DNA of 54,372 bases from Elusimicrobia bacterium RIFOXYA2_FULL_39_19 (GTDB lineage Bacteria > Elusimicrobiota > Endomicrobiia > CG1-02-37-114 > XYA2-FULL-39-19): NCBI GenBank assembly GCA_001800285.1, contig MGVC01000029.1, positions 1 through 54,372 on the forward strand. The letters run 5' to 3'. Positions 17,448 to 43,898 of the stretch are shown here, piece after piece. Numbering within the stretch: the first letter of the stretch is position 1; each line of letters starts with the position of its first letter. The translations under genes and the position numbers were made by a program. Under the pieces are notes generated by a model that saw only the letters and a list, made by a program, of their open reading frames with translations, searched no databases and had not been told where the DNA came from.

Positions 17448-20400
17448 TCACCTTATTACCCCGATTTTCCCCGTTAATTTTTCGCCGTTTGAATTTGTTA
17501 TCCTGTAAATATAAGTTCCGCTGGCAACCCTGTTGCCTGATTTATCTTTTACATTCCATTCATATTTTCCATTATTGTCTGTTTCATTTAAAGTAACAAT
17601 ATGTTCACCTGACATTGTATATATTTTTATGGTTGAATTGTTTGTTAAACCGTCAAAGATTATTCCTGTAGACCAGTCACCGGTCCCTGCTTTTGCATCA
17701 TTTGGTTTAAACGGATTCGGATAAACTCTTACGCTGGTAAGGTTATCTGATGACAAAACTGTGCCGAGTATCCTGAAAATACTGAAGTGAGGCACTGATA
17801 CCGAAACAGTGTTGTTTACCTTATCTAAATCCTGGTGAGCGCTTACAAGGTCCCATTCATTGGTTATTTCATTTAATGTATATATTCTTAAACTATCTTC
17901 CGTTTCTCCTGTTATATTGGCAGGATATGGAATAACTATTGTAACTTCTGACAATAAACTGAGTTTTGCCTTAAACTCCGTACATGTACTTGATAAACTA
18001 TTTACGGTAGTGCTTATTATTTTTGAACTTACTGACGCTTTAGAATTTGCCTGGCTGACCTGGCTCAAAGTAGCTTCACTAAGCACACTGCTGGTTCCTT
18101 CTACTGTAAGTATATCAATAAAAACACCTTTATTTGTACCGGGAGGTACTAAAACTTTAATTGAAGTATTAAAACCGGCAGCAATTTCATAATTTTCTAT
18201 ACCGTTAACCAGTTCACCGATCCTGTTATTTATAGCTCTTACGGGCCCGGTGCAGCCTGTTTCTGAACTGACATTCCCAAAACTATCCACTGCCAGTACA
18301 CCAAAATAATAGGGCTGGCTGTTTACCGCCAGGCCTGTTACCGTGCAGGAAGATGCATCCCTGTTATTTACCGGTGACCCGCTAAAATAGGTAGCTCCGT
18401 TTATACTGCTGAAAGGTTCAGACCCGAAATATACTTTATATCCGGCCAAATCTGCGTCTGTGCTGACAGCCCAGCTTACTACTACCTTACCGCCGGTATC
18501 TGCGGGATTATCTGCAGATTTTAAGGCTTGTACTTTTTCCAGCGGTGTTATGGTACCGTTATATACAAAACTAATTTGGCTGTCTGAAATTATTGTATTA
18601 GGGCTTGTGGCCCGGTCCCTTACACTATTTACAGTTATTGTGTAGGTAGTACCTAACGATAAATCATTAGTAGTCAATATAACAGTTTCAAGGTCAACAT
18701 CTAATACAGCTGACGTAGCTGTTATTGAGTTATCTAAACTATAGCAAGAAACTGTTTCAGCAGATACTTCTTCTACCGGTTCATTGAAAGTTATCCTGAC
18801 TGCATTTTTATTTGAAGCAGAAGCTGATTCTATTTCCGGCGGTGTTGTGTCTCCGCCGACAGATAAAGTAGAGAAACTTCCCTGTAATCCGGCTGTGCTT
18901 TGATTGCCGGAATCATCTACTGCATAAATTGTATAGTTATAGGTAGTATTTGTGCTAAGCCCTGCATCAGGCATGGTTGTACCGCTGGGTGTTCCTATCA
19001 ATGTTGATTCCCTATATACACGGTAATAAGCTGCATAATCGCCGTCAACAGCCTGCCCGCTGGCAGTCCAGCTAAGGGTGATACTGGTTTCGGTTTGTCC
19101 TGTGCTAATAAGAGACGTAGGCGGGTTTGGTGCAGTGACATCTGCCGTTATTGAAGTATAAAAATTTCCACTGGCGCTGGCTGCGCTTTGGTTGCCCGCA
19201 TCATCTACTGCATAGACTGTATAACTATATGTTGTGCCTGCGCTTAATCCTGTGTTTGTATAAGCTGTCCCGCCTGCCGTACTTATATAAACTGAATTTC
19301 TATATATTCTATAACCACTGGCATAATCTCCGTCGCCGGCCTGGGTGCTGGCGGTCCAGCTTAAACGTATGCTTGAAGTTGTACGGGCCATACAAACAAG
19401 ATTTGAAGGAGCATTCGGAGGAGTTGAATCTCCCGGAGTTCCCACTATTGTTTGAAGCGCCAATATAGACAATGCAATATTTTCTCTATATAAATCTAAA
19501 TTATCAAATTCTGAACCACTGTAAGCCCTGCTTAACACACCCTCACAGATTGCTTCTGTTGGATAGGTAAGCATACTGCTTTTAATACTTGCAAGAAGAG
19601 CAACAGCTGCAGTAACATCACTATTTGAACTATACCCCATTGCAACAGCGCTGCTTATCAGCGTTTCTAATTTATATGCATACCTGTAATCATCTATGCC
19701 TTCACGGGCCCATTCATACCAGGTAGTAGGAACCGGGTTATCGTCTTCCGAAGGAAGCACCACTCCGTACTCTCCCCAGTCAGAACCTGTCATGTACTCA
19801 AAAGGAAAATACGGTGTTACCCAGAAATGATAGTTCCACTGCCAGGCGCCGACAGCTGAAGTAGACCAGTTCCAGAAACCCCATTCATATCTGTTGACAT
19901 TTTTTCCCATATTATAAAACCATAAAGGTTTATTGTCAGTTTGCGCATGAGCGACTACTCCGCTTCCAAGTGAGCTTGGTAAAACCTGAACAATGCTCAT
20001 ATAATCAACCATGGGAATGTAATTTACCCCTCCATCAGAATCTCTTAACATTGTAATTGTAGTTCTTACATTAGAAACTGAATTGACTAAATTAAGGTAT
20101 TGTATAGTATCTGCATAATTTGCCTGGCAATCACTGGTAGGGCTTTGACGCGGTTCATCAACCACCCAGAATACTAAAGGGATATTATTTGTATTAGCCC
20201 AGTCTCTGAGAGAAGTAACAATATTTTTAAATGTTGTGTTAAATGAGGTACTGAATTCTGTGTAACCGTTGCTTATAAGCCTGCTGGCTATAGTTTTAGC
20301 AAATATCAGGTTTGGGTGCGCAGGGTCCAGGCCGAAATTTTTGCTTGCCATAACTTCAGCATAAATATTAAGAATGGTATAATCAACACTGGTTCCGGAT

Positions 20401-21845
20401 AATTCCGGCGTAGGTATCTGTATGGCATTATATCCGTGATCTTTCATGCTCTGCATTTCTTTTTCAAGTATGGATTTAAGTTTGTTTTTTGCCTGAGTTT
20501 TTACAGGTTCTGCTAATTCTATTGAAAAAAGTAAACGCAGGTTCTCGCTGCGAGATTCCATGCCGGCCTGCATCCAGCCGAAGGTATGGCCGCATTGATT
20601 TGGGGTAGGCAAACTGAAATTCCTTACTGTTACGGTAATAGGAACTGAAGTTGCTGTTTTGTTGGAAGGCGCAAAATTTACAGTACCTGTATAATCACCG
20701 GCTACAGCGTTGTCCGGAACTTTTACTGTTATCCAGAATTGTTTTGTCAGCCCGTTAGGAATATTCACTGCAGCATCCTGCATAAGAGCATACGGAACTG
20801 GTGTATAATTTTTTTGCCAGATATCTGATACTTCAATTCTTTTTTCAATGTAGTGCGCATTTCTTACTTCTACATTTGCAGCTGGTATTGTCCCGCCGGC
20901 GCCTGTTAAATCACTTACTGTTACGCTTACATTATTCAGGTCACTTAAAGGATATACACCGAGTGTTACCGGTTCAAATTCTCCTTTAGCTGCACTTAAA
21001 GTTATTACAGAAGTTGCTAAAATTAATTCATAAGATTTTGGTTTGGTATTTGGATAGGCTTCGTATATATATTTTCTGGTAAAAAGACGGTAACCTTTAC
21101 CTTCATCAGACGGGACAGCAGTTGAATCTGACGGTAAATATTCAGCATAATAACTGCCGTTAAAAGTAGCTTTACGGGATGTTTTTAATTCTGCCTGCCA
21201 GGTATTTCCTGCTGCCTCCTGGCTTTTTGGATAAACCACTATCATGCTTACTGCACAGTTAACAAATTCTAAAAGCAGGTTACTGTTTGTCACTGTGACA
21301 TCGTATCTGCGGATGGGATAATATAAGTCAATATATTTGTCAAAGGCATTCTGCCCGGGAGTATAATCCAATCCTTTGCCTAAAAAAAAGTGGCTCTGCG
21401 TATAAGCATTGCTTAAACTGATGCTTGAACTGAATAATGTGGTGTAGGACGAACCGCTGTTAAAACTGCATCTGACTGAATAATCCCTTATCGGCACGGG
21501 ATTTCTGAACATTAACAACACAATATAATCGCCATTTGCTACATCCACCCTGAATCTGCAGGTTTGTGAATAAGCCCTGTACCAGCCGATCCAGTCACAG
21601 GCAATAGGGTCAGGAAAATTGCTGTAAGACGGCACATCCAAACCAGAACCGGAATAACCTGAAGTGGTGGTCCAGCCAAAACCAGCGCCTGCGGAATAGG
21701 TCATAGTGGTAGTTACCCTGGTAAAACCGGACTGTACAGATGAAGCCGTTGTGCCCATGTCGTACATTTTTATGCCGGCCGGTACTTGCGCGTATCCGGT
21801 AACTGAAAAACCTATCAATAACGAAAAAATACTAATTATTTTCAT
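17448..21845 (-). CDS. Secreted GH123/DUF4091-like glycoside hydrolase with FN3, Ig-like and FlgD-like C-terminus
   Basis: This 1465-residue protein has a signal peptide (1-19) and a malectin-like N-terminal module (about 20-215). A beta-sandwich follows (about 255-420, FEPVTLGVYPLSDLNNVSV and TKQFWITVKVP). The GH123/DUF4091 TIM-barrel region (about 420-795) carries VVDEPRQ with Asp563-Glu564 as the likely catalytic pair, and ends WAREGIDDYRYAYKLETL. Two FN3 domains (about 807 and 902), an Ig-like domain (998), FN3 (1100), a ZU5-like segment (1205) and a FlgD-like module (1375-1465) follow. GH123 enzymes are retaining beta-N-acetylgalactosaminidases using the neighbouring acetamido group; the substrate here is untested. 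The start ATG has only a distant GGGGAG, inside the repeat that abuts it. It is a full-length paralog of the gene cut at the left edge. Confidence 0.87.
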   Translation of the reverse strand: MKIISIFSLLIGFSVTGYAQVPAGIKMYDMGTTASSVQSGFTRVTTTMTYSAGAGFGWTTTSGYSGSGLDVPSYSNFPDPIACDWIGWYRAYSQTCRFRVDVANGDYIVLLMFRNPVPIRDYSVRCSFNSGSSYTTLFSSSISLSNAYTQSHFFLGKGLDYTPGQNAFDKYIDLYYPIRRYDVTVTNSNLLLEFVNCAVSMIVVYPKSQEAAGNTWQAELKTSRKATFNGSYYAEYLPSDSTAVPSDEGKGYRLFTRKYIYEAYPNTKPKSYELILATSVITLSAAKGEFEPVTLGVYPLSDLNNVSVTVSDLTGAGGTIPAANVEVRNAHYIEKRIEVSDIWQKNYTPVPYALMQDAAVNIPNGLTKQFWITVKVPDNAVAGDYTGTVNFAPSNKTATSVPITVTVRNFSLPTPNQCGHTFGWMQAGMESRSENLRLLFSIELAEPVKTQAKNKLKSILEKEMQSMKDHGYNAIQIPTPELSGTSVDYTILNIYAEVMASKNFGLDPAHPNLIFAKTIASRLISNGYTEFSTSFNTTFKNIVTSLRDWANTNNIPLVFWVVDEPRQSPTSDCQANYADTIQYLNLVNSVSNVRTTITMLRDSDGGVNYIPMVDYMSIVQVLPSSLGSGVVAHAQTDNKPLWFYNMGKNVNRYEWGFWNWSTSAVGAWQWNYHFWVTPYFPFEYMTGSDWGEYGVVLPSEDDNPVPTTWYEWAREGIDDYRYAYKLETLISSAVAMGYSSNSDVTAAVALLASIKSSMLTYPTEAICEGVLSRAYSGSEFDNLDLYRENIALSILALQTIVGTPGDSTPPNAPSNLVCMARTTSSIRLSWTASTQAGDGDYASGYRIYRNSVYISTAGGTAYTNTGLSAGTTYSYTVYAVDDAGNQSAASASGNFYTSITADVTAPNPPTSLISTGQTETSITLSWTASGQAVDGDYAAYYRVYRESTLIGTPSGTTMPDAGLSTNTTYNYTIYAVDDSGNQSTAGLQGSFSTLSVGGDTTPPEIESASASNKNAVRITFNEPVEEVSAETVSCYSLDNSITATSAVLDVDLETVILTTNDLSLGTTYTITVNSVRDRATSPNTIISDSQISFVYNGTITPLEKVQALKSADNPADTGGKVVVSWAVSTDADLAGYKVYFGSEPFSSINGATYFSGSPVNNRDASSCTVTGLAVNSQPYYFGVLAVDSFGNVSSETGCTGPVRAINNRIGELVNGIENYEIAAGFNTSIKVLVPPGTNKGVFIDILTVEGTSSVLSEATLSQVSQANSKASVSSKIISTTVNSLSSTCTEFKAKLSLLSEVTIVIPYPANITGETEDSLRIYTLNEITNEWDLVSAHQDLDKVNNTVSVSVPHFSIFRILGTVLSSDNLTSVRVYPNPFKPNDAKAGTGDWSTGIIFDGLTNNSTIKIYTMSGEHIVTLNETDNNGKYEWNVKDKSGNRVASGTYIYRITNSNGEKLTGKIGVIR

Positions 21846-21854
21846 AAATATATT

Positions 21855-21867
21855 TTATTAACTCCCC
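21855..21867. repeat. Partial intergenic repeat, copy 3
   Basis: The 13 bases TTATTAACTCCCC are identical to the starts of the copies at 4312 and 17357. They sit at the same place relative to the next gene, 9 bases upstream of the ATG of the 1465-residue gene. The rest of the element is absent. Confidence 0.5.
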
Positions 21868-21870
21868 TTT

Positions 21871-22518
21871 TTACCCTTCAACCCTCATGTCGCTGACAAA
21901 TATTGTAACTTCATCAGGGCCGGTTTCTTCCCATTTTTGCTCGGGAAAAAATTTGTATGAAAAATGCCAGGTCTTTATTTCAGAAAGGTCAAGATCTCTT
22001 TTTTCACCGTAAGGTTTTGCTTTATTTAAATCCAGTGATACGTTGTTCATTCCGGGCTTTAAAACAAATGGCAAAACTATCCAGGTATCTCTGCCTACTT
22101 TGTTAGTTATACTTTCTTTGTCTTTAATTACAAGAGTGAACGTAAGATCTTTATCCTGCGGATTAAAAGCATTGAATTTAAAACTGCCAAATCCGGACCA
22201 GGACCTGTCAATTTTGCCGCAACCGCACCAGCCCCTGCCGTTAAAATTAATTTTCAAACCTAACTCGTCTCCGGCTTCAATATTTTCTTCTGTTAAAACA
22301 GCTGAAACAGTTTCACTAACACTGCTGGGCAGTTCCCCTTTTGAAAAATTTAATACAGATAATTTGCGTGCCGGTGCTGATGAACTGACTTTTTTTGTTT
22401 GTTTTGTTTTTGCAGATTTTTTTGTTTTTGCCTCACTCATAGTTACACAACTTAATGCGAACAATACCAACACAACTGCTGTAAAAATACCAAAAGTCTT
22501 TTTGTTAATTTTATGCAT
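21871..22518 (-). CDS. Small secreted CBM-like protein
   Basis: This is a 215-residue protein when started at the ATG at 22518, chosen because GGAGG lies six bases upstream; an in-frame ATG at 22536 lacks such a site. It has a hydrophobic signal peptide (LFALSCVTMSEA, possibly a lipoprotein) and a Lys/Thr-rich spacer. One beta-sandwich domain (about 48-214) follows, with KIDRSWSGFGSFKFNAFNP, VLKPGMNNVSLDL and FVSDMRVEG. It is homologous to the second domain of the protein at 8692-9894. It lies 25 bases before the GH123-like gene, matching the other array block, where a CBM-like gene precedes a propeller gene. Function is inferred only from fold. Confidence 0.75.
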   Translation of the reverse strand: MHKINKKTFGIFTAVVLVLFALSCVTMSEAKTKKSAKTKQTKKVSSSAPARKLSVLNFSKGELPSSVSETVSAVLTEENIEAGDELGLKINFNGRGWCGCGKIDRSWSGFGSFKFNAFNPQDKDLTFTLVIKDKESITNKVGRDTWIVLPFVLKPGMNNVSLDLNKAKPYGEKRDLDLSEIKTWHFSYKFFPEQKWEETGPDEVTIFVSDMRVEG

Positions 22519-22605
22519 CTTACGCCTCCAATTCAAATTTTCTCAACTGTGCCCCGCTACGCTCGAAGAATAACTTTATATATAAGCGAAGTCGAGAACC
22601 TGTCT

Positions 22606-25600
22606 CTATCGCACTATAGCCATCTTACCCGTCATCTTATCTCCGGCTGTATTGGTAACTATATAGATATACGTTCCGCTGGATACTTTTTCTTTTTCTT
22701 TATTTTTTACGTCCCAAATGTATTTACCGTCATTGTTTGTTTCTTCAAGTGTATTTACAAGCTCTCCGGTTAACGTATATATTTTTATTGTTGAATTGTT
22801 TGTAAGGTTATCAAATACTATACCTGTATTCCAGTCACCGTTTTCTAATTTATTATCATTGGGTTTAAAAGGATTTGGGTACACTCTTACTTCTTTTAAA
22901 TTGTCCTTTGATAATACTGCCCCCATTATTCTATAAACGCTGAAATGTTCTACTTCTACCGCCACTGTATTTGCAAGCGGGGATAATTCCTGCGCCCCGG
23001 GCACCAATTCCCACTCATTACTGGTTTCATTAAGACAGTAAATCCTTAACCCGTTTTCTGTTTCACCGGTTATTGTTGAAGGATAAGCTAATACTATCGT
23101 TACTTTTTCCACCAAATTCATCAAAGCATTAAACTCTGTACTGGTATCCGATAAATCATTTATTGTTGTACTCAATATCCTTGTATCATTCTGCGCAGCT
23201 GTGTTTGCCTGCGTTATCTTTGAAGTTTTATCTTCAGGTTTTTTTATGTTTATGTACACCCCGTCATTTAACCCGGGATTTGCTATAACCTTAGCTTTCA
23301 GGTTATAACTATTCATTATTACTTCATATACTTTTTGGCCGTTTATGGTTTCACCTAACCTGTTGTTTATAGCTCGTACAGGGCCTACGCTGGATATACT
23401 GCCGCTGACATTACCCGATAAATCTATTGCCAATACTCCAAAATAGTAGTCCTGACTGTTTACTACAAGTCCGGTTACTACACAGCTGGATGTGTTCGGG
23501 TTGGAAACAGGGGAGCCGCTGAAATACGTTGCCCCGGTTATACTGGTAAACGGGTTTGGTGAATAATATACTTTATAACCGGCTATATCACTATCTGATA
23601 CGTTGGTCCAGGTTACTATTACTTTTCCGCCTTTATCTGTAGGATAATCTTTTGCACCTAAACCGGATACTGCTTCGGGCGCGGTTGTATCACCGTACAT
23701 ATAATTCATCGTACTGTTGGCTGATATTGTATTGGGTGTGCCTGAAAGGTCTTTAATGTAATTTATGGTTATGGTATATGTTGTTCCTACGCTATGCTGG
23801 CTGGTGGTTAAAGTCACAGTCTTTTGGTCTGACCCTAAAACTGCATTTATTACATTTACACTGTTGTTTATTTCATAGTTTGTTTCTTCTTCTGCTGAGG
23901 TTTGTTCTATAGGCTCGCTGAATTCTATGGTTATTATGGTTGCAGTTGTTACTGATACAGATACTATTGCAGGCGGTGTGATATCTGAACCGGAAGTTGA
24001 AAAACTCCCCAATGCATAACTTATGCTTACGTTGCTGGAATCATCTACTGCAAAAACATAATAACTGTAGGTTGTATTTTTTGTAAGGCCGGTATCTGTA
24101 AATGTTGTACCATCGGCTGAACCTACTAATCCTAATGCATTTCTGTATACTCTATAGTAACTGGCGTAATCACCGTCACCGGCCTGCGCACTGGCTGTCC
24201 AGCTCATGGTTATACTGGTTTCGGTCTGCGCAGAACTGCTTAAACTTGATGGTGCGTTTGGCGGCGTTGTGTCTGACCCGCCGGCTGATGTTGAAAAACT
24301 GCCGCTGGCAGAAGATACGCTTACATTGTTTGAATCATCTACGGCATAGACCCCGTAACTGTAAGTTATTCCTGCTGTTAATCCGGAATCGGTATAAATT
24401 ATTCCGACGGCTGTACTTATTAATACTGCGTCTCTGTATATTCTGTAGAAACTTGCGCTGTCACCGTCACCGGCTTGGGTTGATGCCGTCCAGTCCATTG
24501 TTATTGTTGCCTGGGTTTGATTTGAACTTGTTAGATTTGTTGGCGCGTTGGGCGGGGTTACGTCTCCTCCGCCGGCACTGTATTCATCGGCACCTATATC
24601 CCAGGTACCGCTTCTTGAGGTTCCGTCTATATCTGTGTTGAATGATAAGTATACGTCAGCTGAAAGGTCAACGCCGGCATCCTGGGCCTGCGTATCTCCA
24701 ACTGCTATATGAAAATCTTTACCGGTTTTATTTTCAAAGGTTACTGTTACACCGTTTTTTGAATTTGCGCCGGGTGCGTCACTGGCAACATCTGATATAT
24801 TGTAATCTGATGCCCCGTCAAAACTTGCTCCAAATCCGTCTGTACAATCCTGTGCTATATTGTTTTTGGCTATGGCGCTGGCTTCATCGGAATAATATCC
24901 GTACCCGCAGTTTACTGCCGTATTGTTGTATAGGTACCTTTTTCTGTCTGCATCTCTTATATACATACCAAAATAACTTGTACCCGTACCGTTCATATCA
25001 TAGATTAGGTTGTTCCAGATTCGTACTATACTGTTCTGCCCGGTTGCGGCGGTTTTTGAACCGAAAATTCCTCTCTTATTACTCGTTGTGAAATTGCCAG
25101 GGCCTTTTATTATGCAGTTGCTTATCCGTATATCTTCTGCGCTGGTTTCATCACCATACACATCTATTCCATTGCCGCCGTCTATATCGTTTTTTGTGAA
25201 ATTTATTTGTAAGCCATTTATGCGGACATTGGATTCACCTATATATAAAGAATCTGTTGTAGTGCCGGCGCTTAATATATATGCGTTTGTATCCCACTTA
25301 CCGCTGTGTTTATATCCGTCAGGTGTACGGATTTCTATGTAGTTTGTTGCGTTGGTGGTCCACCCGAATATTGATACAGGTGTTGTGTCTGTCATGGGGT
25401 AACATTCTGCTACTGCTATTACTTTATCGCCGGTATTGCCGGCAGTAAAATAATTGTTTGAATCTACCCTTATCTGTTCACCGGTTTGAAATGTACCGGC
25501 GATTACATTTACATATAACTGGCTGGCAGTGCAATGATACACTGTTGCAGTAGCACCGGAAGTTGCTCCGGTTACACTTGCGCCGTCATTGATTGTGCCG

Positions 25601-28242
25601 GTCTTCGCACCACTGAATACTTTGCTGGCTGCACTGGTGATATCGCTTTGGATTGCTGTTTCCCAGCCGGCAATTGATTTATAATCCCCGCCGCTGCTTT
25701 TTATTGAGCATACAAATTCAGAGTAACCGGAAGGAATAACATAGGTTCCGGTAAAGTTTTGCGATGTCTGGTTAGTTCCTAACCCTGAATAGGTTCTGTT
25801 TACCGGGCTGAAACTCCAGTTACTAAGACTGGGAGCTACTGTATAATTTCCGGGAGGCAAGGTACTGAACTGATAGGCACCGCTTCCATTGGTTGTTGTG
25901 GATCCGTTGCTGTCACCGCTTAAGGTTATTGTTACCCCGCCAAGCGCTGAACTTGTACTGGTGGTTACTGTTCCGGATATGTCATATCCTGTGCCGGTAT
26001 AACTGCCAAAGAAATCCTGGCTGCCTTGTGCTGTCATGATATTTGTGTAGGATTTGTTTACCGGGTTTATATTCCAATCTGTTTTTGTTGGGGTTACTGT
26101 GTAATTTGCGCCGGTTGATACACTGAATACATAAAATCCGCTGGAAGTTGTTGTGTATGTGCCGGTACTGCTGCCGCTTAAAGATAACAATACACCGCTT
26201 ACACCTGCTGATGAATTATTCTTTACATACCCGCTGATTGTTGTGCCGGAAGTAGGAATTGGAACATACATCTTTATATATTTATTCCCGGGAGAAACAC
26301 TGTTGCTTCCAAGAGGCAGAGCCCCGCCGACATTTACTGTATAACTGTAAGAATTTGTGCCTGCAGGAATTGTTTGAGTCTGGGTATAGGTTGAACCGCT
26401 TATCTGCCAGCCATGGGTAATTTCTAATTCTGAAGTAGAAGGATTTTCATAATAGGCATAGATAAAGAATCCCCTGAACCCGTTATTGTTCTTTTGTGCA
26501 GGATCCGGCGTTATCTTAAATTTTACCAGGCATTGGGTTGCTGAACCGGATAACACAGCGCTGCCGTTATATAAACTGCGCGATGAATATACCCAGGAAT
26601 CTGGAGTGTGGCTGGAAATCAGCACCCAGGAACTTCCGTTATCTGTGGAATAATACATCTCATGAAAGGGTTGACTAAGCCAGAGCTGGTAATGACAGGT
26701 TAAATCAAGTTTTCTTATCGCCCCGGGACAATCTACCTTATATACAACTTCTAAAGGAAGAGCTGTGCTAGTTAATGTCAAATGCGCAGTATCTACATTA
26801 TTCCATTTAGCATTTGAATCTGAATACCTTCCAGCTTCATATATTGCCTGGCTGGTCCAGATATCGGGAACTATTTCCCTCACTGATAAATTATCTGAAG
26901 TGTAAGTGACATTGTTTACGCCATTTTCCAAACCGCATAAACTGTATAACATCATGGAGTTTACCATTACTCTTGTATTTAAGGTTAAATCATCCAATCC
27001 GCTGCCATTTGTAAAATTAAATTTAACCCAATATTGGTATCTTCCTTTAACGTAATCTGAAATGTCATTACTGAATGAACCGCTTAGACTTCCTATACTT
27101 ATCCAGGAAGCTCCCATGGTATAGGAAATACTCATAGTTACACTGCCTACTGCACTGCCGCTTATTACAGCTCCTTTAGTTGCTCCGGCAAGGCTGGGAT
27201 TTGTATCATCCGAAGGATGAGGGGCTATTACGTAGGGTGTTCTCATATAAAATATTACTTCGGAACTGCCGCTGGTACCTGCTAATTTCGGCGAGCCGCT
27301 CTGTGAAACTACATCTGTGCTTGCCAACATGCCTTCAAAACAGGAGGAATGTGATAAGTTCGGTGTATAAATGAATTCGCCGTTTGCATACATACCGAAA
27401 CCATTATAACCGGAGGTCTGGGTAGGCGGAGCATTTGGAATTTTTACATAACTATTTCCCCAGGTACGTGTATTAATTGTTGAATTATTATTACCCCAAA
27501 ATTGATAACTGGGGCTCCATTGCCGGTCAAAATATCTTGTGAATGTTTCACCGGGACGAAGAGTAATATCCATTGAGTGACTGTAAGAATATCCGAAATA
27601 TGGATAGGCATAAGTGATATTATAATCCCACAGGTGATCATAGCCGTATCCAGGCAGCTGGTAATGAGGGTCATCTGCTGAAACAGAATTGCCAAATAAT
27701 GCAGCCCGGTCTGTTAAACTTAAAGCTCTTATTTCATCTACGCTTGCAATTTTTCCTGTGCCGTCAACCGCATAACCGCAGCCATCGCCGTCTATCATGT
27801 GCCAGTTGCCGTCATAATAAACTTCCGGGACGGTGTGGGCCGGAAGGTTTACGGTTCTTGTACGGAACCCGGCTTTTTCAAAAAATGAATTCATTACCGG
27901 AGCGTTCTGCCCGCAGATAGCTGAACCATAGGAGTGCAGATGTTTTAGCGCGTCAATGTTGCCGCTGTCTAAACTTCTGTTAAGCGGTTCATATACGGAA
28001 GGTGAATGATAGATGTTAGTCATTACATATTTCCAGATTTTATTTGCTTTCTCTGCATCGGTCATACTGCCGTCAAGAATTTCGTCAAGTATTTCATCTA
28101 TATTCCTGCCGCTGACATAATACTTATCCGGATGCTTGTTACCTTCTACCCAAGCGCCAGAAACAACCGCAAAAACATTGGAAGATACTGTTGACATTAA
28201 ACAAACTAAAGTAATAACACTTTTTAAATTTATTCTTTCCAT
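22606..28242 (-). CDS. Giant secreted protein: transglutaminase-like head, carboxypeptidase-regulatory repeats, beta-helix, FN3, FlgD-like C-terminus
   Basis: This 1878-residue protein has a signal peptide (1-25). A transglutaminase/protease-like domain (about 45-200) has a plausible Cys110-His136-Asp151 triad in SAICGQN, LPAHTVPEVYYDG and WHMIDGDG. Jelly-roll-like sequence follows to about 650. Two carboxypeptidase-regulatory-like (SdrD-B) repeats follow (ISGYVKNNSSAGVSG and ISGTVTTSTSSALGG). A beta-helix module (about 841-1222) ends DIDGTSRSGTWDIGADE. Two FN3 domains (1227, 1324), Ig-like (1424), FN3 (1521), ZU5-like (1624) and FlgD-like (1790-1878) follow. The head may hydrolyse or crosslink proteins, or act on peptide bonds, at the surface; that is inference from the triad. 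The start ATG has AGAGG. It follows the PorV-like gene by 161 bases containing a repeat. Confidence 0.85.
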   Translation of the reverse strand: MERINLKSVITLVCLMSTVSSNVFAVVSGAWVEGNKHPDKYYVSGRNIDEILDEILDGSMTDAEKANKIWKYVMTNIYHSPSVYEPLNRSLDSGNIDALKHLHSYGSAICGQNAPVMNSFFEKAGFRTRTVNLPAHTVPEVYYDGNWHMIDGDGCGYAVDGTGKIASVDEIRALSLTDRAALFGNSVSADDPHYQLPGYGYDHLWDYNITYAYPYFGYSYSHSMDITLRPGETFTRYFDRQWSPSYQFWGNNNSTINTRTWGNSYVKIPNAPPTQTSGYNGFGMYANGEFIYTPNLSHSSCFEGMLASTDVVSQSGSPKLAGTSGSSEVIFYMRTPYVIAPHPSDDTNPSLAGATKGAVISGSAVGSVTMSISYTMGASWISIGSLSGSFSNDISDYVKGRYQYWVKFNFTNGSGLDDLTLNTRVMVNSMMLYSLCGLENGVNNVTYTSDNLSVREIVPDIWTSQAIYEAGRYSDSNAKWNNVDTAHLTLTSTALPLEVVYKVDCPGAIRKLDLTCHYQLWLSQPFHEMYYSTDNGSSWVLISSHTPDSWVYSSRSLYNGSAVLSGSATQCLVKFKITPDPAQKNNNGFRGFFIYAYYENPSTSELEITHGWQISGSTYTQTQTIPAGTNSYSYTVNVGGALPLGSNSVSPGNKYIKMYVPIPTSGTTISGYVKNNSSAGVSGVLLSLSGSSTGTYTTTSSGFYVFSVSTGANYTVTPTKTDWNINPVNKSYTNIMTAQGSQDFFGSYTGTGYDISGTVTTSTSSALGGVTITLSGDSNGSTTTNGSGAYQFSTLPPGNYTVAPSLSNWSFSPVNRTYSGLGTNQTSQNFTGTYVIPSGYSEFVCSIKSSGGDYKSIAGWETAIQSDITSAASKVFSGAKTGTINDGASVTGATSGATATVYHCTASQLYVNVIAGTFQTGEQIRVDSNNYFTAGNTGDKVIAVAECYPMTDTTPVSIFGWTTNATNYIEIRTPDGYKHSGKWDTNAYILSAGTTTDSLYIGESNVRINGLQINFTKNDIDGGNGIDVYGDETSAEDIRISNCIIKGPGNFTTSNKRGIFGSKTAATGQNSIVRIWNNLIYDMNGTGTSYFGMYIRDADRKRYLYNNTAVNCGYGYYSDEASAIAKNNIAQDCTDGFGASFDGASDYNISDVASDAPGANSKNGVTVTFENKTGKDFHIAVGDTQAQDAGVDLSADVYLSFNTDIDGTSRSGTWDIGADEYSAGGGDVTPPNAPTNLTSSNQTQATITMDWTASTQAGDGDSASFYRIYRDAVLISTAVGIIYTDSGLTAGITYSYGVYAVDDSNNVSVSSASGSFSTSAGGSDTTPPNAPSSLSSSAQTETSITMSWTASAQAGDGDYASYYRVYRNALGLVGSADGTTFTDTGLTKNTTYSYYVFAVDDSSNVSISYALGSFSTSGSDITPPAIVSVSVTTATIITIEFSEPIEQTSAEEETNYEINNSVNVINAVLGSDQKTVTLTTSQHSVGTTYTITINYIKDLSGTPNTISANSTMNYMYGDTTAPEAVSGLGAKDYPTDKGGKVIVTWTNVSDSDIAGYKVYYSPNPFTSITGATYFSGSPVSNPNTSSCVVTGLVVNSQDYYFGVLAIDLSGNVSGSISSVGPVRAINNRLGETINGQKVYEVIMNSYNLKAKVIANPGLNDGVYINIKKPEDKTSKITQANTAAQNDTRILSTTINDLSDTSTEFNALMNLVEKVTIVLAYPSTITGETENGLRIYCLNETSNEWELVPGAQELSPLANTVAVEVEHFSVYRIMGAVLSKDNLKEVRVYPNPFKPNDNKLENGDWNTGIVFDNLTNNSTIKIYTLTGELVNTLEETNNDGKYIWDVKNKEKEKVSSGTYIYIVTNTAGDKMTGKMAIVR

Positions 28243-29373: not shown

Positions 29374-30393
29374 TTATTTATTAACTAATTTTGCGCCGCA
29401 AGATTCCCTGATAACAAGTTCGGGTTCAATAACTATCTTTTTATACTGCATGTCAGGGTTTTCTATATTTTCAAGCAGTAGTTTTATACTTTCTTCAGAC
29501 AAAGTGGCAGTAGATAATTTAACTGTAGTTAAAGGAAACTTCATATGAGCAAGGTATTTAATGTCATAAAAACCTGTTATTGCAATATCTTCCGGAACTC
29601 TGATTCCTCTGCTGTTTAATTCTCTCCAGTAAGCCATAGCCATATTATCATCCACTGCCGAAATAACTGTAGGCCTGGGATTTATTTTCAGAATACTGTC
29701 AATGGTTTCAGGAATTTTACTTAAGTCAGAACGAATAATAAGTCCTGGGTTAAACTCAATATTGCTTTCTGCCAGAGCTTTTTTGTAACCTTCCATTTTC
29801 TGAACATTGGGCACCGGTTCTAAAGAACCCAGCGGGAAACAAATATTTTTATGGCCAATGCTTATCAGATGCCTTACCAGAAGATACTCACCCCAAAAAT
29901 GGTTAAAGCTGACACAGTTACAACTAATGTTTGCATCTCCGAATATAAGTACAAACGGAAATTTGCTTTCTTTAAGTTTCTCAAGCCTTTCAATAAAATT
30001 CTCCGGGTGCGATGTCGGCATAAGAGTGATAAGCGCCCCGTCTACCTTGCGCTTCATTAACAGTTCCATATAGGCCGCTTCCCTGTCATCTTTGTGGCCG
30101 CTAAAAAACAATATCATGTCCTGGTTATTTCTATACATAGTTTCTTCTATGTCTTTAAGCAATTCCGACCAATAGGGGTTTGTAATAGTATGAAGTACCA
30201 GCCCTACAGTCTGTGTTTTTTTGTTTTTAAGTGACCTGGCAATGTTGTTAGGCGTATAATTTAATTCATCAGCAATCTTTAATATTTTCCTTCTTGTTTC
30301 TTCGCTAATTCTCGGATTATTATTCAGTGCCCGCGACACCGTAGAATTATTTACGTTAGCTAACTTTGCGATGTCTTCTATTGTTTTATGCAT
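29374..30393 (-). CDS. LacI-family transcriptional regulator
   Basis: The start is placed at ATG 30393 (339 residues) because GGGAGG lies nine bases upstream and the protein then begins MHKTIEDIAKLANV, the normal LacI N-terminus; an in-frame ATG 42 bases upstream would add an unrelated tail. The helix-turn-helix and hinge are clear (IEDIAKLANVNNSTVSRAL to NNIARSLKNKKTQTVGLVL). A periplasmic-binding-like effector domain follows, with AVDDNMAMAYWRELNSRGIRVPEDIAITGFYD. Such regulators usually sense sugars. It is the first gene of the surface-protein array, so it probably controls the array and itself. Two similar operator-like sites lie upstream. The effector is unknown. Confidence 0.92.
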   Translation of the reverse strand: MHKTIEDIAKLANVNNSTVSRALNNNPRISEETRRKILKIADELNYTPNNIARSLKNKKTQTVGLVLHTITNPYWSELLKDIEETMYRNNQDMILFFSGHKDDREAAYMELLMKRKVDGALITLMPTSHPENFIERLEKLKESKFPFVLIFGDANISCNCVSFNHFWGEYLLVRHLISIGHKNICFPLGSLEPVPNVQKMEGYKKALAESNIEFNPGLIIRSDLSKIPETIDSILKINPRPTVISAVDDNMAMAYWRELNSRGIRVPEDIAITGFYDIKYLAHMKFPLTTVKLSTATLSEESIKLLLENIENPDMQYKKIVIEPELVIRESCGAKLVNK

Positions 30394-30408
30394 CTGTGCA
30401 AACCTCCC

Positions 30409-30424
30409 TGCGCAAACGTCTTCA
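30409..30424 (-). promoter_or_regulatory. Candidate LacI-family operator in the lacI leader
   Basis: The minus strand reads TGAAGACGTTTGCGCA, an imperfect dyad around a central CG like PurR and CcpA-type sites. The 9-mer TGAAGACGT recurs at 30759-30767 over the upstream transcription start. This copy lies just upstream of the GGGAGG of the lacI-family gene and downstream of the terminator, so it could act as a roadblock or control a second, weaker promoter. Confidence 0.45.
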
Positions 30425-30456
30425 TAAAGTTTCAAAAAAAATATATACTATAAAAT

Positions 30457-30500
30457 AAAAAAACCAGCCTATATTAGAAAACCTAAAATAGCCCGGTTAT
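30457..30500 (-). terminator. Strong intrinsic terminator between leader RNA and lacI-family gene
   Basis: On the minus strand, AACCGGGCTATTTTAG and CTAATATAGGCTGGTT form a 16-position stem with two mismatches and a short loop, followed by seven Ts. It lies 64 bases before the lacI-family ATG and downstream of the promoter at 30773-30801. It either ends a stand-alone RNA or attenuates the regulator gene. Confidence 0.8.
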
Positions 30501-30540
30501 ACCACAAAAAATACAAATCAAAACATGAGTTAAGTATTAT

Positions 30541-30743
30541 CGGTAACCGGCTGCCCTGCAAGCATCATCCTTTTTTGTACAAGCTAAGAACTTCGCTCAG
30601 GGCCCATTGGTTTTGCCCCGTCATATGCTTATGAACGGGAGGCTCGTCTGTGTCTGCAAGACGGCCTGTCCTCTGATTTCTCAGAGTTTGCCATTTCGGG
30701 TTTCTGTAACTTTCACTGCAAAGAACAATTATTTCCTATTGTT
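30541..30743 (-). ncRNA. Structured leader or stand-alone RNA of unknown family
   Basis: Between a consensus promoter and a strong terminator, this non-coding stretch is richer in G+C than its A+T-rich flanks. It holds at least five hairpins on the transcribed strand. In order they are AACAAT/ATTGTT (30743-30724), CTCTGA-GAAA-TCAGAG (30686-30671), GGCCGTC/GACGAGCC (about 30665-30641), CCCGT(T)CATA-AGCA-TATGACGGG (30639-30616) and a long GCCCTG/CAGGGC stem (30603-30553) with an inner AGC/GCT hairpin. No peptide ORF explains it. The message would be about 310 bases from promoter to terminator. It matches no class I can name: it lacks the GEMM-I core and the single rod of 6S RNA. Strand is set by promoter and terminator. 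Confidence 0.6.
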
Positions 30744-30753
30744 TGCTAATCTA

Positions 30754-30767
30754 TGCACACGTCTTCA
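30754..30767 (-). promoter_or_regulatory. Candidate LacI-family operator at the transcription start
   Basis: The minus strand reads TGAAGACGTGTGCA, sharing TGAAGACGT with the site at 30409-30424. It begins six to seven bases after the -10 box at 30773-30778, so a bound repressor would cover the start site. Confidence 0.5.
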
Positions 30768-30772
30768 CTATT

Positions 30773-30801
30773 AATATAATAGGTTTTTCCCATAAAGTCA
30801 A
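30773..30801 (-). promoter_or_regulatory. Sigma70 promoter of the leader RNA / lacI operon
   Basis: TTGACT (30801-30796), a 17-base spacer and TATATT (30778-30773) are near consensus. The predicted start is near 30766, inside the operator-like site. Confidence 0.75.
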
Positions 30802-30958
30802 GCTTTTTTTAAATATTGCCCTTTAATCTTTCAAAAAATGACACCATAACAAAGATGAACGTAAAGAGAATTTTTACTGTTTGAACGTTATTTAAAAATT
30901 TTACGTTTTATAAAGAACCGACTAACTATAATTAGAATATATGATAATGAAAAAAAAC

Positions 30959-31099
30959 TTATTTTGCCTGGCTTTTTAAAAAATCCCATATTACTTCGCA
31001 GGTATATGTATCTTTTGATGTTTTACCCACATATTTTTCTGCCAGGTATTGATAACCGCCGGGCCCGGCATGGATTTCTGCGAAGGGTATTAAAACGGT
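30959..31099 (-). pseudogene. C-terminal remnant of an alpha/beta-hydrolase (esterase)-like gene
   Basis: An open stretch of about 46 codons ends in TAA and reads IPFAEIHAGPGGYQYLAEKY, then VGKTSKDTYTCEVIWDFLKS. This resembles the last strand-histidine-helix part of esterase/PHB-depolymerase-like hydrolases (SEVIWDFFK-type ending). The upstream part is gone: the frame runs into a dispersed GTCATTCTGAACT repeat and has no start codon. The family call is tentative. Confidence 0.4.
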
Positions 31100-31491: not shown

Positions 31492-31536
31492 AAAATGTAA
31501 CAATTAAACCGTTTCTATAGAAAAAGCTTAATTGTT
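31492..31536 (-). terminator. Terminator of the reversed AbiE operon
   Basis: AACAATTAA and TTAATTGTT form a 9-bp stem (31536-31499) with an inner TTTCTATAGAAA palindrome, followed on the minus strand by ACATTTTTC. It overlaps the TAA stop of the AbiEi-like gene. Confidence 0.6.
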
Positions 31537-32154
31537 GCGTTTTTTAATTATTTCTTCAAGTTTAATTTCTGCGGCAACCAGGGCTTTTTTATCAGGTATT
31601 TTTTGGATCCACTCCCTGGCTTTTTTTACGTCAAATGGCTTTTTTAGATTAAGCTCCGGGAAAAAACCATATTGTTTTTTTTTCCTTGTAAAAAGATAAA
31701 GACAATCGGCTAATGCTTTTTCAGGTTCGGCTACAAGAAAACTCCCTGTACCCTTATACCATTCAAAACCGGAAAAAAACTGAGATGATATTTTATGAAC
31801 CAAAAATGTGCCAACCGTTGTGGTTATTTTTCTGGTATGAGCAGTTGAAGCCAGGGTTATAACCTGCGGAATCTGTTCAATAATTCCGTGCAAGTGTAGA
31901 GCGCTTAAAAAGGAAACGTAAACCCTGCTGCCCCGGAAAAGATGAGGGACCACCATATAAGGGCTTAATAGTTTACCTCCCACTTCAACCCAGACCCCGC
32001 GATAAATTTTTTTTACAATAGTATGCTCGCTGAGATAAGCAAGCGCCTGGCTTACCGTAGACATGCTTTTGCCGGAAATGTCGGACAGCTCCCGTGTAGT
32101 AAAAACAGGCCGGCCAAGCCTTCTGATATATTCAACTGTTATTGCCTGGGGCAT
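31528..32154 (-). CDS. AbiEi-like antitoxin / transcriptional regulator
   Basis: This 208-residue protein has an N-terminal winged helix (about 8-58, FTTRELSDISGKSMSTVSQALAYL). The AbiEi-type body includes YVSFLSALHLHGIIEQIP, the AEPEKALADCLYL motif and a short C-terminal helix. AbiEi proteins repress their own operon and counter the AbiEii nucleotidyltransferase toxin. The gene overlaps the 3' end of the toxin gene by 16 bases and has no Shine-Dalgarno, so translation is probably coupled. The usual abiE order is antitoxin first; here the toxin is first. Confidence in the family is good; activity is inferred. Confidence 0.8.
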   Translation of the reverse strand: MPQAITVEYIRRLGRPVFTTRELSDISGKSMSTVSQALAYLSEHTIVKKIYRGVWVEVGGKLLSPYMVVPHLFRGSRVYVSFLSALHLHGIIEQIPQVITLASTAHTRKITTTVGTFLVHKISSQFFSGFEWYKGTGSFLVAEPEKALADCLYLFTRKKKQYGFFPELNLKKPFDVKKAREWIQKIPDKKALVAAEIKLEEIIKKRNN

Positions 32155-32912
32155 ATAAACTCGGTGATTTTTATTTTAATCTCATCCCATAAATCAGGAT
32201 TTTCATAGGCCATCCTTGCTTCATCAGCAAGATAATTCAATACGGTATCCCGGTACTGGCGGAAGCTGACAGAAAATGTATTATTACATGCGGTATCTTT
32301 CACGGTTGCCGGTATGTTTATTTTACCGGAGCCTTCAGTTAACTGGGTAGATAGGGTATAAAGATCAAAAATATCCCGGGCCTGAACTATACTTCTGCCT
32401 GCCAAGGCATATATTTTCTGCAGGGCTGCGCTTTGAATATCATAATGACTGACTATCAATGGGGAAATTTTATAACTGCGAAGAATCTTTTCAGAAACAG
32501 GCCCTACTACAGCCTTACCTAAGGCTTCCCTTCGGGAAAATTCAATTTTTGTAAAAAGGTCTTCCCCCCGAGAAGCTAATATATGTATTTTAAAACGCTG
32601 GGTGGTTTCTATTTGTTTTGCTTTTGTTATATTTGGCGGTATTATTTTTTCAATACCGAATGGTTTAATTTCGTTCAATAAAGCTTGTGAATCAAGTATT
32701 TTCATAACAATATCCCGCAAGGTTATAACATTTATGGTATTAATATCTATGTCCATATCTTCCGAATACCTGATATTGCTGAAAAATAACCGCATATTTA
32801 CCCCGCCTTTAAGAGCATAAATATTAGGCCTTAACTTTAATGAAAGCAGGCGGAGAAATTCAATATGGAATACTTCTCTAACCTGAAGATTGTTATATAA
32901 ATGGCTTTTCAT
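32139..32912 (-). CDS. AbiEii-like nucleotidyltransferase toxin
   Basis: This 257-residue protein carries the AbiEii/MenT-type nucleotidyltransferase signature: GGVNMRLFF (Gly36-Gly37) and RYSEDMDID (Ser50-Glu51-Asp52, Asp54) in the N-terminal third. The helix LQKIYALAGRSIVQARDIFDLYTL, with the Lys and Asp typical of the family's second core motif, follows. Such toxins transfer nucleotides, in studied members to tRNA 3' ends. It is the first gene of its operon, from a consensus promoter whose start site is only about 20 bases upstream, and no Shine-Dalgarno is visible. A shorter start is possible but would lose part of the first helix. Confidence 0.82.
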   Translation of the reverse strand: MKSHLYNNLQVREVFHIEFLRLLSLKLRPNIYALKGGVNMRLFFSNIRYSEDMDIDINTINVITLRDIVMKILDSQALLNEIKPFGIEKIIPPNITKAKQIETTQRFKIHILASRGEDLFTKIEFSRREALGKAVVGPVSEKILRSYKISPLIVSHYDIQSAALQKIYALAGRSIVQARDIFDLYTLSTQLTEGSGKINIPATVKDTACNNTFSVSFRQYRDTVLNYLADEARMAYENPDLWDEIKIKITEFICPRQ

Positions 32913-42511: not shown

Positions 42512-43288
42512 TTAGAAATTGTGGCCTCTTACGAAGTCAACAAAATACAATACTTTCTTTGAATCATCCGGATTGAAAAGAAACGGCTCTACGTCTCTTG
42601 CCAATTGTTTAAAATTCAGTTTTTCACATTTAGTTAAAAGTTCTGCTTTTAAAACCTCAGCAGATTTAAAGTTCAATTTTTCTTTTAAATAGTTCATTGA
42701 AGGTTTTACCAGTCCTGATAAAAAAACAACATCATAAAAATCACGGCCTAGAGGCCGTTTTCTCTTGAATATTGCGGCTATTTTTTGAGCCAACAGAAGG
42801 TCTACGGGAACTACGTTTATCCTCAGGAATACATCAAATTTATTCAGCACCTTCTTGTCAAGTGTATATAAATAATTCTGGGGTTCTGCATCTATATAAA
42901 TAGAGAGTTTTTCCTGGCTATTTGTTGTTAACCCGTAATTATGAAAAATTCCGGGGAACTTTAGGTAAATGTGAAAAGCCCCTTTTAATACTACCGAAAC
43001 CTCTGTGTTATAACCTTCCTGCGTAAGTTTCTTTTTCAAAAGTTCCGCCAGGCCCTTAAAGGACTTTTTGTCCAGCCCCTTATTATCAAAATCCAAATCT
43101 TCCGAGAACCTGGTATTGTTGTATATAATACGCCCTGCAGTACCCCCCATAAAAACAAGGCTTTCCGAATATTTTGAATCAAATATATAGCCCAAAATCT
43201 TATATTGCAGGTACTCGCGCAGCATATTGCGTTTAAACGGTTTTACCTGTTGCGGGTAGAACTGCTCTAGGCTTTTAATATCAATCAT
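42512..43288 (-). CDS. AbiEii-like nucleotidyltransferase toxin
   Basis: This 258-residue protein has the motifs FMGGTAGRIIYNNTRFSEDL (Gly48-Gly49; Ser62-Glu63-Asp64, Asp66) and AQKIAAIFKRKRPLGRDFYD, placing it in the AbiEii/AbiGii nucleotidyltransferase family. It follows the AbiEi-like gene with an 8-base overlap (ATGATTGA), the canonical order. It is diverged from the copy at 32139-32912: beyond the core motifs little is identical, so this is not a recent duplication. An inverted repeat follows its stop. Confidence 0.85.
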   Translation of the reverse strand: MIDIKSLEQFYPQQVKPFKRNMLREYLQYKILGYIFDSKYSESLVFMGGTAGRIIYNNTRFSEDLDFDNKGLDKKSFKGLAELLKKKLTQEGYNTEVSVVLKGAFHIYLKFPGIFHNYGLTTNSQEKLSIYIDAEPQNYLYTLDKKVLNKFDVFLRINVVPVDLLLAQKIAAIFKRKRPLGRDFYDVVFLSGLVKPSMNYLKEKLNFKSAEVLKAELLTKCEKLNFKQLARDVEPFLFNPDDSKKVLYFVDFVRGHNF

Positions 43289-43898
43289 TTTTAATACACT
43301 CCTTAAATATTTTTATTTTCCCTTCAAGCGCCTTATTCTGAAATTTAGCCAGGTATTCATCCAGCACAGGCATTGCCAGTACACCCTGGACCCGGTTTTT
43401 ATTTATACGCAATTCCAGTATATCAGTTTTTGTCTTTATATGTTCATTGATGTAGAAAAAATCAAGCAAGGCTTTTTCTGCCGATGCAATAATAAAACTT
43501 TCTTTTTTATAAGCCATGAGTTTATAACCGAAAAATAGTTTTTTATGAAGGGTGTGGTAGGATAATTTACCCAGAGGCGTGTTAAAATTATAAGTTTTTT
43601 TTGTTGCGGCAGAAGTGATTTTATACACACTTTCAGGAATCAAACCATAATACGCCAAAGCGGTTTCAAAAGAAATATAGGAGGGCTTATAAATCTTGTT
43701 AGCAGTTAAAAAAAGCAGTTGTTCGTTTATTTCTGTGTCAGAAAAAATGTAATACTTGCGGACAATCTTTTTGATATACCCCTTTTTCTGCCATTCAACC
43801 AAACGCTGGTTAAAAAACCAGGGATCAAGCAGCCTGATATCATTTACTGAAAATATTAAAAAATCCTTAAACTTTTCCTTAAAAGTTATAAAATTCAT
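43281..43898 (-). CDS. AbiEi-like antitoxin / transcriptional regulator
   Basis: This 205-residue protein begins with a winged-helix-like N-terminus (FSVNDIRLLDPWFFNQRLVE, then KKGYIKKIVRKYYIF). The AbiEi body contains YISFETALAYYGLIPE, FNTPLGKLSYHTLHKKLFFG and the ASAEKALLDFFYI motif. It is first in its operon, with AGGAG seven bases before the ATG. A palindrome over the transcription start suggests autoregulation, as known for AbiEi. It probably neutralises the nucleotidyltransferase encoded next. Confidence 0.85.
   Translation of the reverse strand: MNFITFKEKFKDFLIFSVNDIRLLDPWFFNQRLVEWQKKGYIKKIVRKYYIFSDTEINEQLLFLTANKIYKPSYISFETALAYYGLIPESVYKITSAATKKTYNFNTPLGKLSYHTLHKKLFFGYKLMAYKKESFIIASAEKALLDFFYINEHIKTKTDILELRINKNRVQGVLAMPVLDEYLAKFQNKALEGKIKIFKECIKND

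Follow-up and report, generated by a model that had tools for sequence, protein, structure and literature searches.

The window analysed here is positions 1 to 54,372 of contig MGVC01000029.1 of Elusimicrobia bacterium RIFOXYA2_FULL_39_19. On its minus strand lies a gene for a lacI-family regulator, followed in the same operon by a gene for a PorV-like outer-membrane protein. The region 17448-28242 encodes secreted proteins of very large size, in which fn3, GH123-like, carboxypeptidase-regulatory and CHU_C type IX secretion domains are recognised. The window also contains two gene pairs (31528-32912 and 42512-43898) with an AbiEii-type nucleotidyltransferase toxin (PF08843), which are probable type IV toxin-antitoxin modules. 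The features ahead of and including the first two genes of the operon are as follows.

30801-30457, minus: leader element, in the order -35/-10 pair, operator-like site, structured stretch, terminator
30801-30773, minus: putative promoter TTGACT-17-TATATT, 10 of 12 consensus matches
30767-30751, minus: LacI-type operator 1, TGAAGACGTGTGCATAG, at about +1
30702-30539, minus: predicted c-di-GMP-I aptamer, interrupted by an insert (RF01051 at 25.1 bits; paralogue on contig C20)
30686-30671, minus: P2 hairpin CUCUGA-GAAA-UCAGAG, 6 bp, pair probabilities 0.96-1.0
30667-30617, minus: 51 nt insert of two abutting hairpins, exactly between C44 and G45 (Vc2 numbering)
30667-30640, minus: insert hairpin A, 28 nt, from the fold
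30639-30617, minus: insert hairpin B, 23 nt, from the fold
30611-30546, minus: P3 stem region with AG bulge, G83 at 30551, from the RF01051 alignment and the fold
30552-30490, minus: predicted antiterminator, 30552-30542 pairing with 30503-30490 (11 pairs) and covering C92 (30543) and G83
30496-30457, minus: intrinsic terminator, 12 pairs in 14 columns with two mismatches, then a U-run
30424-30408, minus: LacI-type operator 2, TGAAGACGTTTGCGCAG, between terminator and lacI
30393-29374, minus: lacI-family regulator (PF00356, PF13377), ATG at 30393 read from the sequence
29357-28404, minus: PorV-like outer-membrane protein, next operon gene (PF19572)

Much of the layout proposed in the initial annotation of this DNA stands. 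There is no gene-sized open reading frame over the structured element, the GAAA-capped stem is the 6 bp stem of P2, the end of the terminator U-run lies 64 bases from the lacI ATG as had been stated, and the operator-like site at +1 is present in a window where 0.03 matches to it would be expected. Two claims survive in part. A -35/-10 pair is found, but promoter-like matches are no commoner than chance (6 in the region against 9.1 in shuffles), and the terminator is real although its stem falls short of the 16 positions given for it; a simple terminator scan overlooked this terminator. The structured stretch has a folding z of -2.6, with 3 of 100 dinucleotide shuffles folding as well. Operator 2 was absent from the initial annotation; with it the operator sequence TGAAGACGTKTGCRYAG has two matches in the window against 0.03 expected. 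A Shine-Dalgarno-like GGGAGG at 30408-30403 precedes lacI.

The same annotation had left the RNA unassigned, put it forward as an undescribed RNA, and suggested an Rfam scan. At gathering cut-offs, a scan of the whole window gives no match, whereas a permissive scan of 30380-31000 finds the c-di-GMP-I (GEMM) model RF01051 at 30702-30539 on the minus strand with 25.1 bits (E 0.01). This is below the gathering cut-off of 35 bits and counts against our preferred explanation, the score being low because 51 bases (30667-30617) interrupt the core. Matches to a group I intron (15.1 bits) and to RAGATH-33 (13.3 bits) are far under cut-off and were set aside. The genome contains five RF01051 RNAs above cut-off and seven GGDEF matches. 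The closest of the five to the window RNA, on contig C20, scores 54.5 bits and is uninterrupted, aligning at 85% identity before and 81% identity after the 51-base gap. A genome of the same family (G001) carries a homologue of the same sub-form, GACCCGAAA...GCGCAAAACCA...AGCCGG, again without the insert, which precedes an outer-membrane-type open reading frame that we read as PorV-like. Because of the RF01051 match together with the C20 paralogue and the G001 homologue, the element is, judged by homology, an interrupted c-di-GMP-I aptamer and not an unknown RNA class, and neither 'unassigned' nor 'undescribed' now fits it.

The conserved core is recognisable on both sides of the insert. Relative to C20, two pairs of P2 are changed on both sides (U-A for C-G and A-U for G-C), and since both sides differ the pairing has been maintained through change. 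P3 pairs form in a constrained fold, and in silico removal of the insert gives P2, the GC/GC basal pairs and the base of P3 in the arrangement typical of the class. The basal pairs G21-C46 and C22-G45 are given zero probability when the whole leader is folded without constraints, which also counts against our preferred explanation, and P2 is not continuous, in that GAC does not run directly into the GC of the basal pairs but is separated from it by the 51 nt. We take C36-G90 of Vc1 to be equivalent to C44-G83 of Vc2. The interhelical P2-P3 pair has been called universal in GEMM (PMC4744006), and both bases are kept in the window (C 30668 and G 30551), the pairing contact between them being predicted. 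The bases that contact c-di-GMP are G20, A47 and C92 in Vc2 numbering (PMC4744006, PMC11218506), and by alignment all three equivalents are kept (G 30692, A 30614 and C 30543). A tetraloop receptor in P3 belongs to type I forms only, type II forms having none (PMC11218506); its strands, as we read them, are CCUGAG...GGAUGG in C20 and CCUGAG...GCAGGG in the window, so that the first strand is kept and its partner is altered, a further point against our preferred explanation.

Both hairpins of the insert are flush, with a linker length of zero between A and B and between the hairpins and the core. The fold is matched by 4 of 10,000 shuffles of the insert, and two flush hairpins are formed by 23 of 10,000. 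We considered whether the insert is a genomic repeat or mobile element and rejected this, there being no second copy in the genome and no target duplication seen.

The element combines an aptamer, a predicted antiterminator pairing and a terminator, in agreement with the initial reading of a riboswitch-type attenuator. The 3' strand of the aptamer, AGCCGGUUACC (30552-30542), includes G83 and C92, and its antiterminator partner, GGUAUAACCGGGCU (30503-30490), shares bases with the terminator's 5' arm; the 11-pair antiterminator is thus incompatible both with the terminator and with P3. The free minimum energy, with antiterminator, is -91.6 kcal/mol against -82.5 kcal/mol when aptamer and terminator are enforced, although of the 11 pairs the free fold contains just those of GGUUACC; from these models we judge that a tight ligand could pay for the gap. 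With c-di-GMP bound, the aptamer would retain its 3' strand, the terminator would form and transcription would stop before lacI. With no ligand, this strand would pair instead with 30503-30490, covering C92 and G83, and read-through by RNA polymerase would transcribe lacI, the PorV-like gene and the secreted-protein operon. We infer the OFF direction from this modelled attenuation; the Cd1 OFF switch of C. difficile works on this principle (PMC9262584). In the C20 copy the terminator is a different one, and as in the window it is followed by the operator and then the gene. We therefore consider it likely that the element is a class-I c-di-GMP riboswitch with two abutting hairpins between C44 and G45, predicted to bind c-di-GMP and to act most likely as an OFF switch.

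The c-di-GMP-I class is among the best studied of riboswitches, and its core is usually treated as a compact fixed unit. We found no description of extra hairpins in c-di-GMP-I in the literature, although an earlier mention together with the GGC/UAU variants is possible, and no literature on riboswitches in Omnitrophica/Omnitrophota or Elusimicrobia. When the pattern GGCAAAYYNNNNGNRANNNNRRGACN{25,55}GCAAARCYA was scanned over 84,980 genomes it returned 52 loci, mainly in records titled Candidatus Omnitrophota, with some from Auribacterota. In nine of these GAC runs straight into GCAAA, and four appear to be chance matches in apparent coding sequence; removing them leaves 39 loci. The nine (L085, L091, L092, L099, L107, L110, L111, L117 and L126), in which a second GCAAARCYA occurs further on, are probably standard or partly duplicated aptamers. 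In the 39, inserts of 25-54 nt lie exactly between GAC and GCAAA, as in the window, and nearly all are built of two hairpins with no linker at any of the three joints. Their sequences are unrelated, loops and stems alike being unconserved, and the hairpin lengths vary too much for alignment with MAFFT. Taking four outer pairs per hairpin and no linker as the definition of the flush two-hairpin form, we find it at 31 of the 39 loci, whereas 60 rounds of shuffling gave 0.6 on average and at most 3. Each outer position shows four to six of the standard pair types, and because the outer arms were selected for complementarity the shuffle test is the fair one here. The median folding z of the inserts is -4.1.

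For a count within Omnitrophota we used the pattern without a forced GNRA loop, which matched in 32 of 384 sampled genomes (about 26, or ~7%, judged real on inspection), while the same pattern run backwards on this sample gave one match. In the window's own phylum the strict pattern has no genuine match in the 340 other genomes, and the window, as sole carrier of the insert among 341, is to that extent evidence against our preferred explanation; the single further match (G136) appears to be a chance one. The insert pattern was not found in viral contigs. Genes downstream of the Omnitrophota variants encode pilin-type, secreted, adhesin-like and receiver-domain proteins and so fit the usual gene contexts of c-di-GMP-I. 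The insert-bearing aptamer reaches the RF01051 cut-off at 15 of 38 scanned loci and falls below it at 23, and the hairpin insert is absent from every Rfam model examined. The two-hairpin c-di-GMP-I aptamer is thus a recurrent structural variant without an Rfam model. At two Omnitrophota loci (L082:1475-1746 and L095:62-660) the insert-bearing aptamer lies less than about 500 bp from a second c-di-GMP-I-type aptamer that is over the cut-off, and two c-di-GMP-I-like RNAs (G116:C122:3993-4068 and G398:C57:38277-38353) have inserts elsewhere in the P2 arm.

What is novel in the window RNA is therefore the two-hairpin insertion in the core, an architecture common to many Omnitrophota riboswitches. 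Since uninterrupted relatives are close, in the same genome and in the same family, and the insert is unseen elsewhere in the phylum, the simplest history would be that the insert was gained independently. The shared base step and the shared two-hairpin form would then be convergent, and they suggest that the structure permits an insertion at C44/G45. At this step C44 would leave the P2 stack and pair with G83 in P3, which would turn the backbone, and for the same reason the insert is probably tolerated here as an accessory structural module. The recurrence of the insertion would mean that the fold can open at C44/G45 with contact bases and architecture kept and sequence free. It would explain the scores of the many Omnitrophota c-di-GMP-I riboswitches that fall below the Rfam cut-off, would add to the c-di-GMP regulons predicted for uncultured phyla, and would offer a natural attachment point for engineered sensors. 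A more speculative suggestion, which we regard as rather unlikely, is that the two-hairpin insert is a second control element on top of c-di-GMP sensing that has arisen independently in two phyla; if so, the multi-branch junction beside the pocket would serve as a protein- or RNA-binding arm or would control the rate of folding.

The main rival to a working switch, unlikely in our view but to be taken seriously, is that the aptamer was broken by a chance insertion and no longer binds c-di-GMP, with the leader reduced to an attenuator of fixed output or to a simple 5' UTR under LacI control. Such decay would be consistent with the uniqueness of the insert in its phylum, with the P3 receptor strand that differs from that of C20, and with the score below the Rfam cut-off. 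However, the contact bases are all kept, P2 has been maintained by double changes, and the switching strand and the terminator are still mutually exclusive. A chance insert would also rarely form two flush hairpins, as the shuffles indicate, and the same form of insertion is widespread in Omnitrophota, and therefore the site tolerates it. Improbable for different reasons is an altered input, in which the inserted hairpins would be a second sensor (for a protein, RNA or other ligand) or would change the ligand of the pocket. The insert does adjoin the binding pocket and is highly structured, but the 39 inserts lack the conservation of loop or stem sequence that a ligand pocket would have, and RNAs that bind c-di-GMP have the same G20, A47 and C92.

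It is very improbable that the RNA is a stand-alone sRNA under LacI control that ends at the terminator, as had been entertained in the initial annotation. Although it has its own promoter-like site, operator and terminator, the terminator arm pairs by way of the antiterminator with the ligand-binding strand of the aptamer, the order of riboswitch, terminator, operator and gene is the same ahead of a secreted-protein gene on C20, and the same type of RNA precedes secretion genes at other loci. The further proposal made there, of a new riboswitch-type attenuator for the substrate of the array, taken here as a class that would sense a sugar or another substrate of the gene cluster, has hardly any likelihood left, since apart from the position ahead of a lacI-family gene it is contradicted by c-di-GMP-I homology on both sides of the insert and by the alignment with the intact C20 paralogue.

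Compared with known systems, the preferred c-di-GMP-I assignment of the window RNA agrees with RF01051 (Vc2, Vc1, Cd1 and Bc1) in GGCAAA, a GNRA-capped P2, GAC, GCAAA and ACCGA, in a P3 with an AG bulge, in the equivalents of G20, A47, C92, C44 and G83, and in its place in the 5' leader of surface and secretion genes; with Cd1 it further shares an antiterminator in which the aptamer's 3' strand would pair with the terminator's 5' arm. It differs from RF01051 in the insert and the resulting score, in having lacI as first target gene, and in a tetraloop receptor that is not clearly recognisable. The c-di-GMP-I-GGC family (RF03167), whose Rfam model has a short P3, has clan and core in common with it, and several Omnitrophota variant loci score best with that model, below its cut-off, but the 80 positions of the model run GGGACGCGAAgCc without any insert. 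The cGAMP (c-AMP-GMP) GEMM variants, reviewed in PMC7266159, have the same fold; the G20A form of GEMM-I binds cGAMP (PMC6274999), whereas the window has G at position 20. Like the composite of c-di-GMP-II and a group I ribozyme, the window RNA combines a c-di-GMP aptamer with another RNA element, although c-di-GMP-II is another aptamer class and is joined to an adjacent ribozyme and not interrupted (PMC9481103).

A second input at this locus would come from LacI, or a paralogue, at the two operators, one at +1 and the other between the terminator and the gene, so that we predict two-input control of the secretion operon, with c-di-GMP attenuation as the other input. Three lacI paralogues, 52-61% identical, are present in the genome. 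Further copies of the operator TGAAGACGTTTGCRCA occur (G000, at C20:46730, C20:55826 and C34:15849), two of them ahead of secreted-protein open reading frames; the sites on C20 lie about 35-45 bp upstream of these frames, and that on C34 just behind another lacI. These copies look like a LacI regulon of secretion modules, and LacI would probably regulate both itself and related modules of this kind. Two of the three paralogues lie close upstream of another c-di-GMP-I aptamer. The adjacency of lacI and c-di-GMP-I recurs, with the aptamer about 100-330 bp downstream of the lacI-family gene, at G000:C12:13750-15110, G000:C85:5804-7191 and G014:C44:12289-13467. The ends of contigs C12 and C85 of G000 (L010 and L011) fall within a partial c-di-GMP-I aptamer or immediately past it, and these partial aptamers sit behind a short tandem array of hairpin-like units of about 45 nt.
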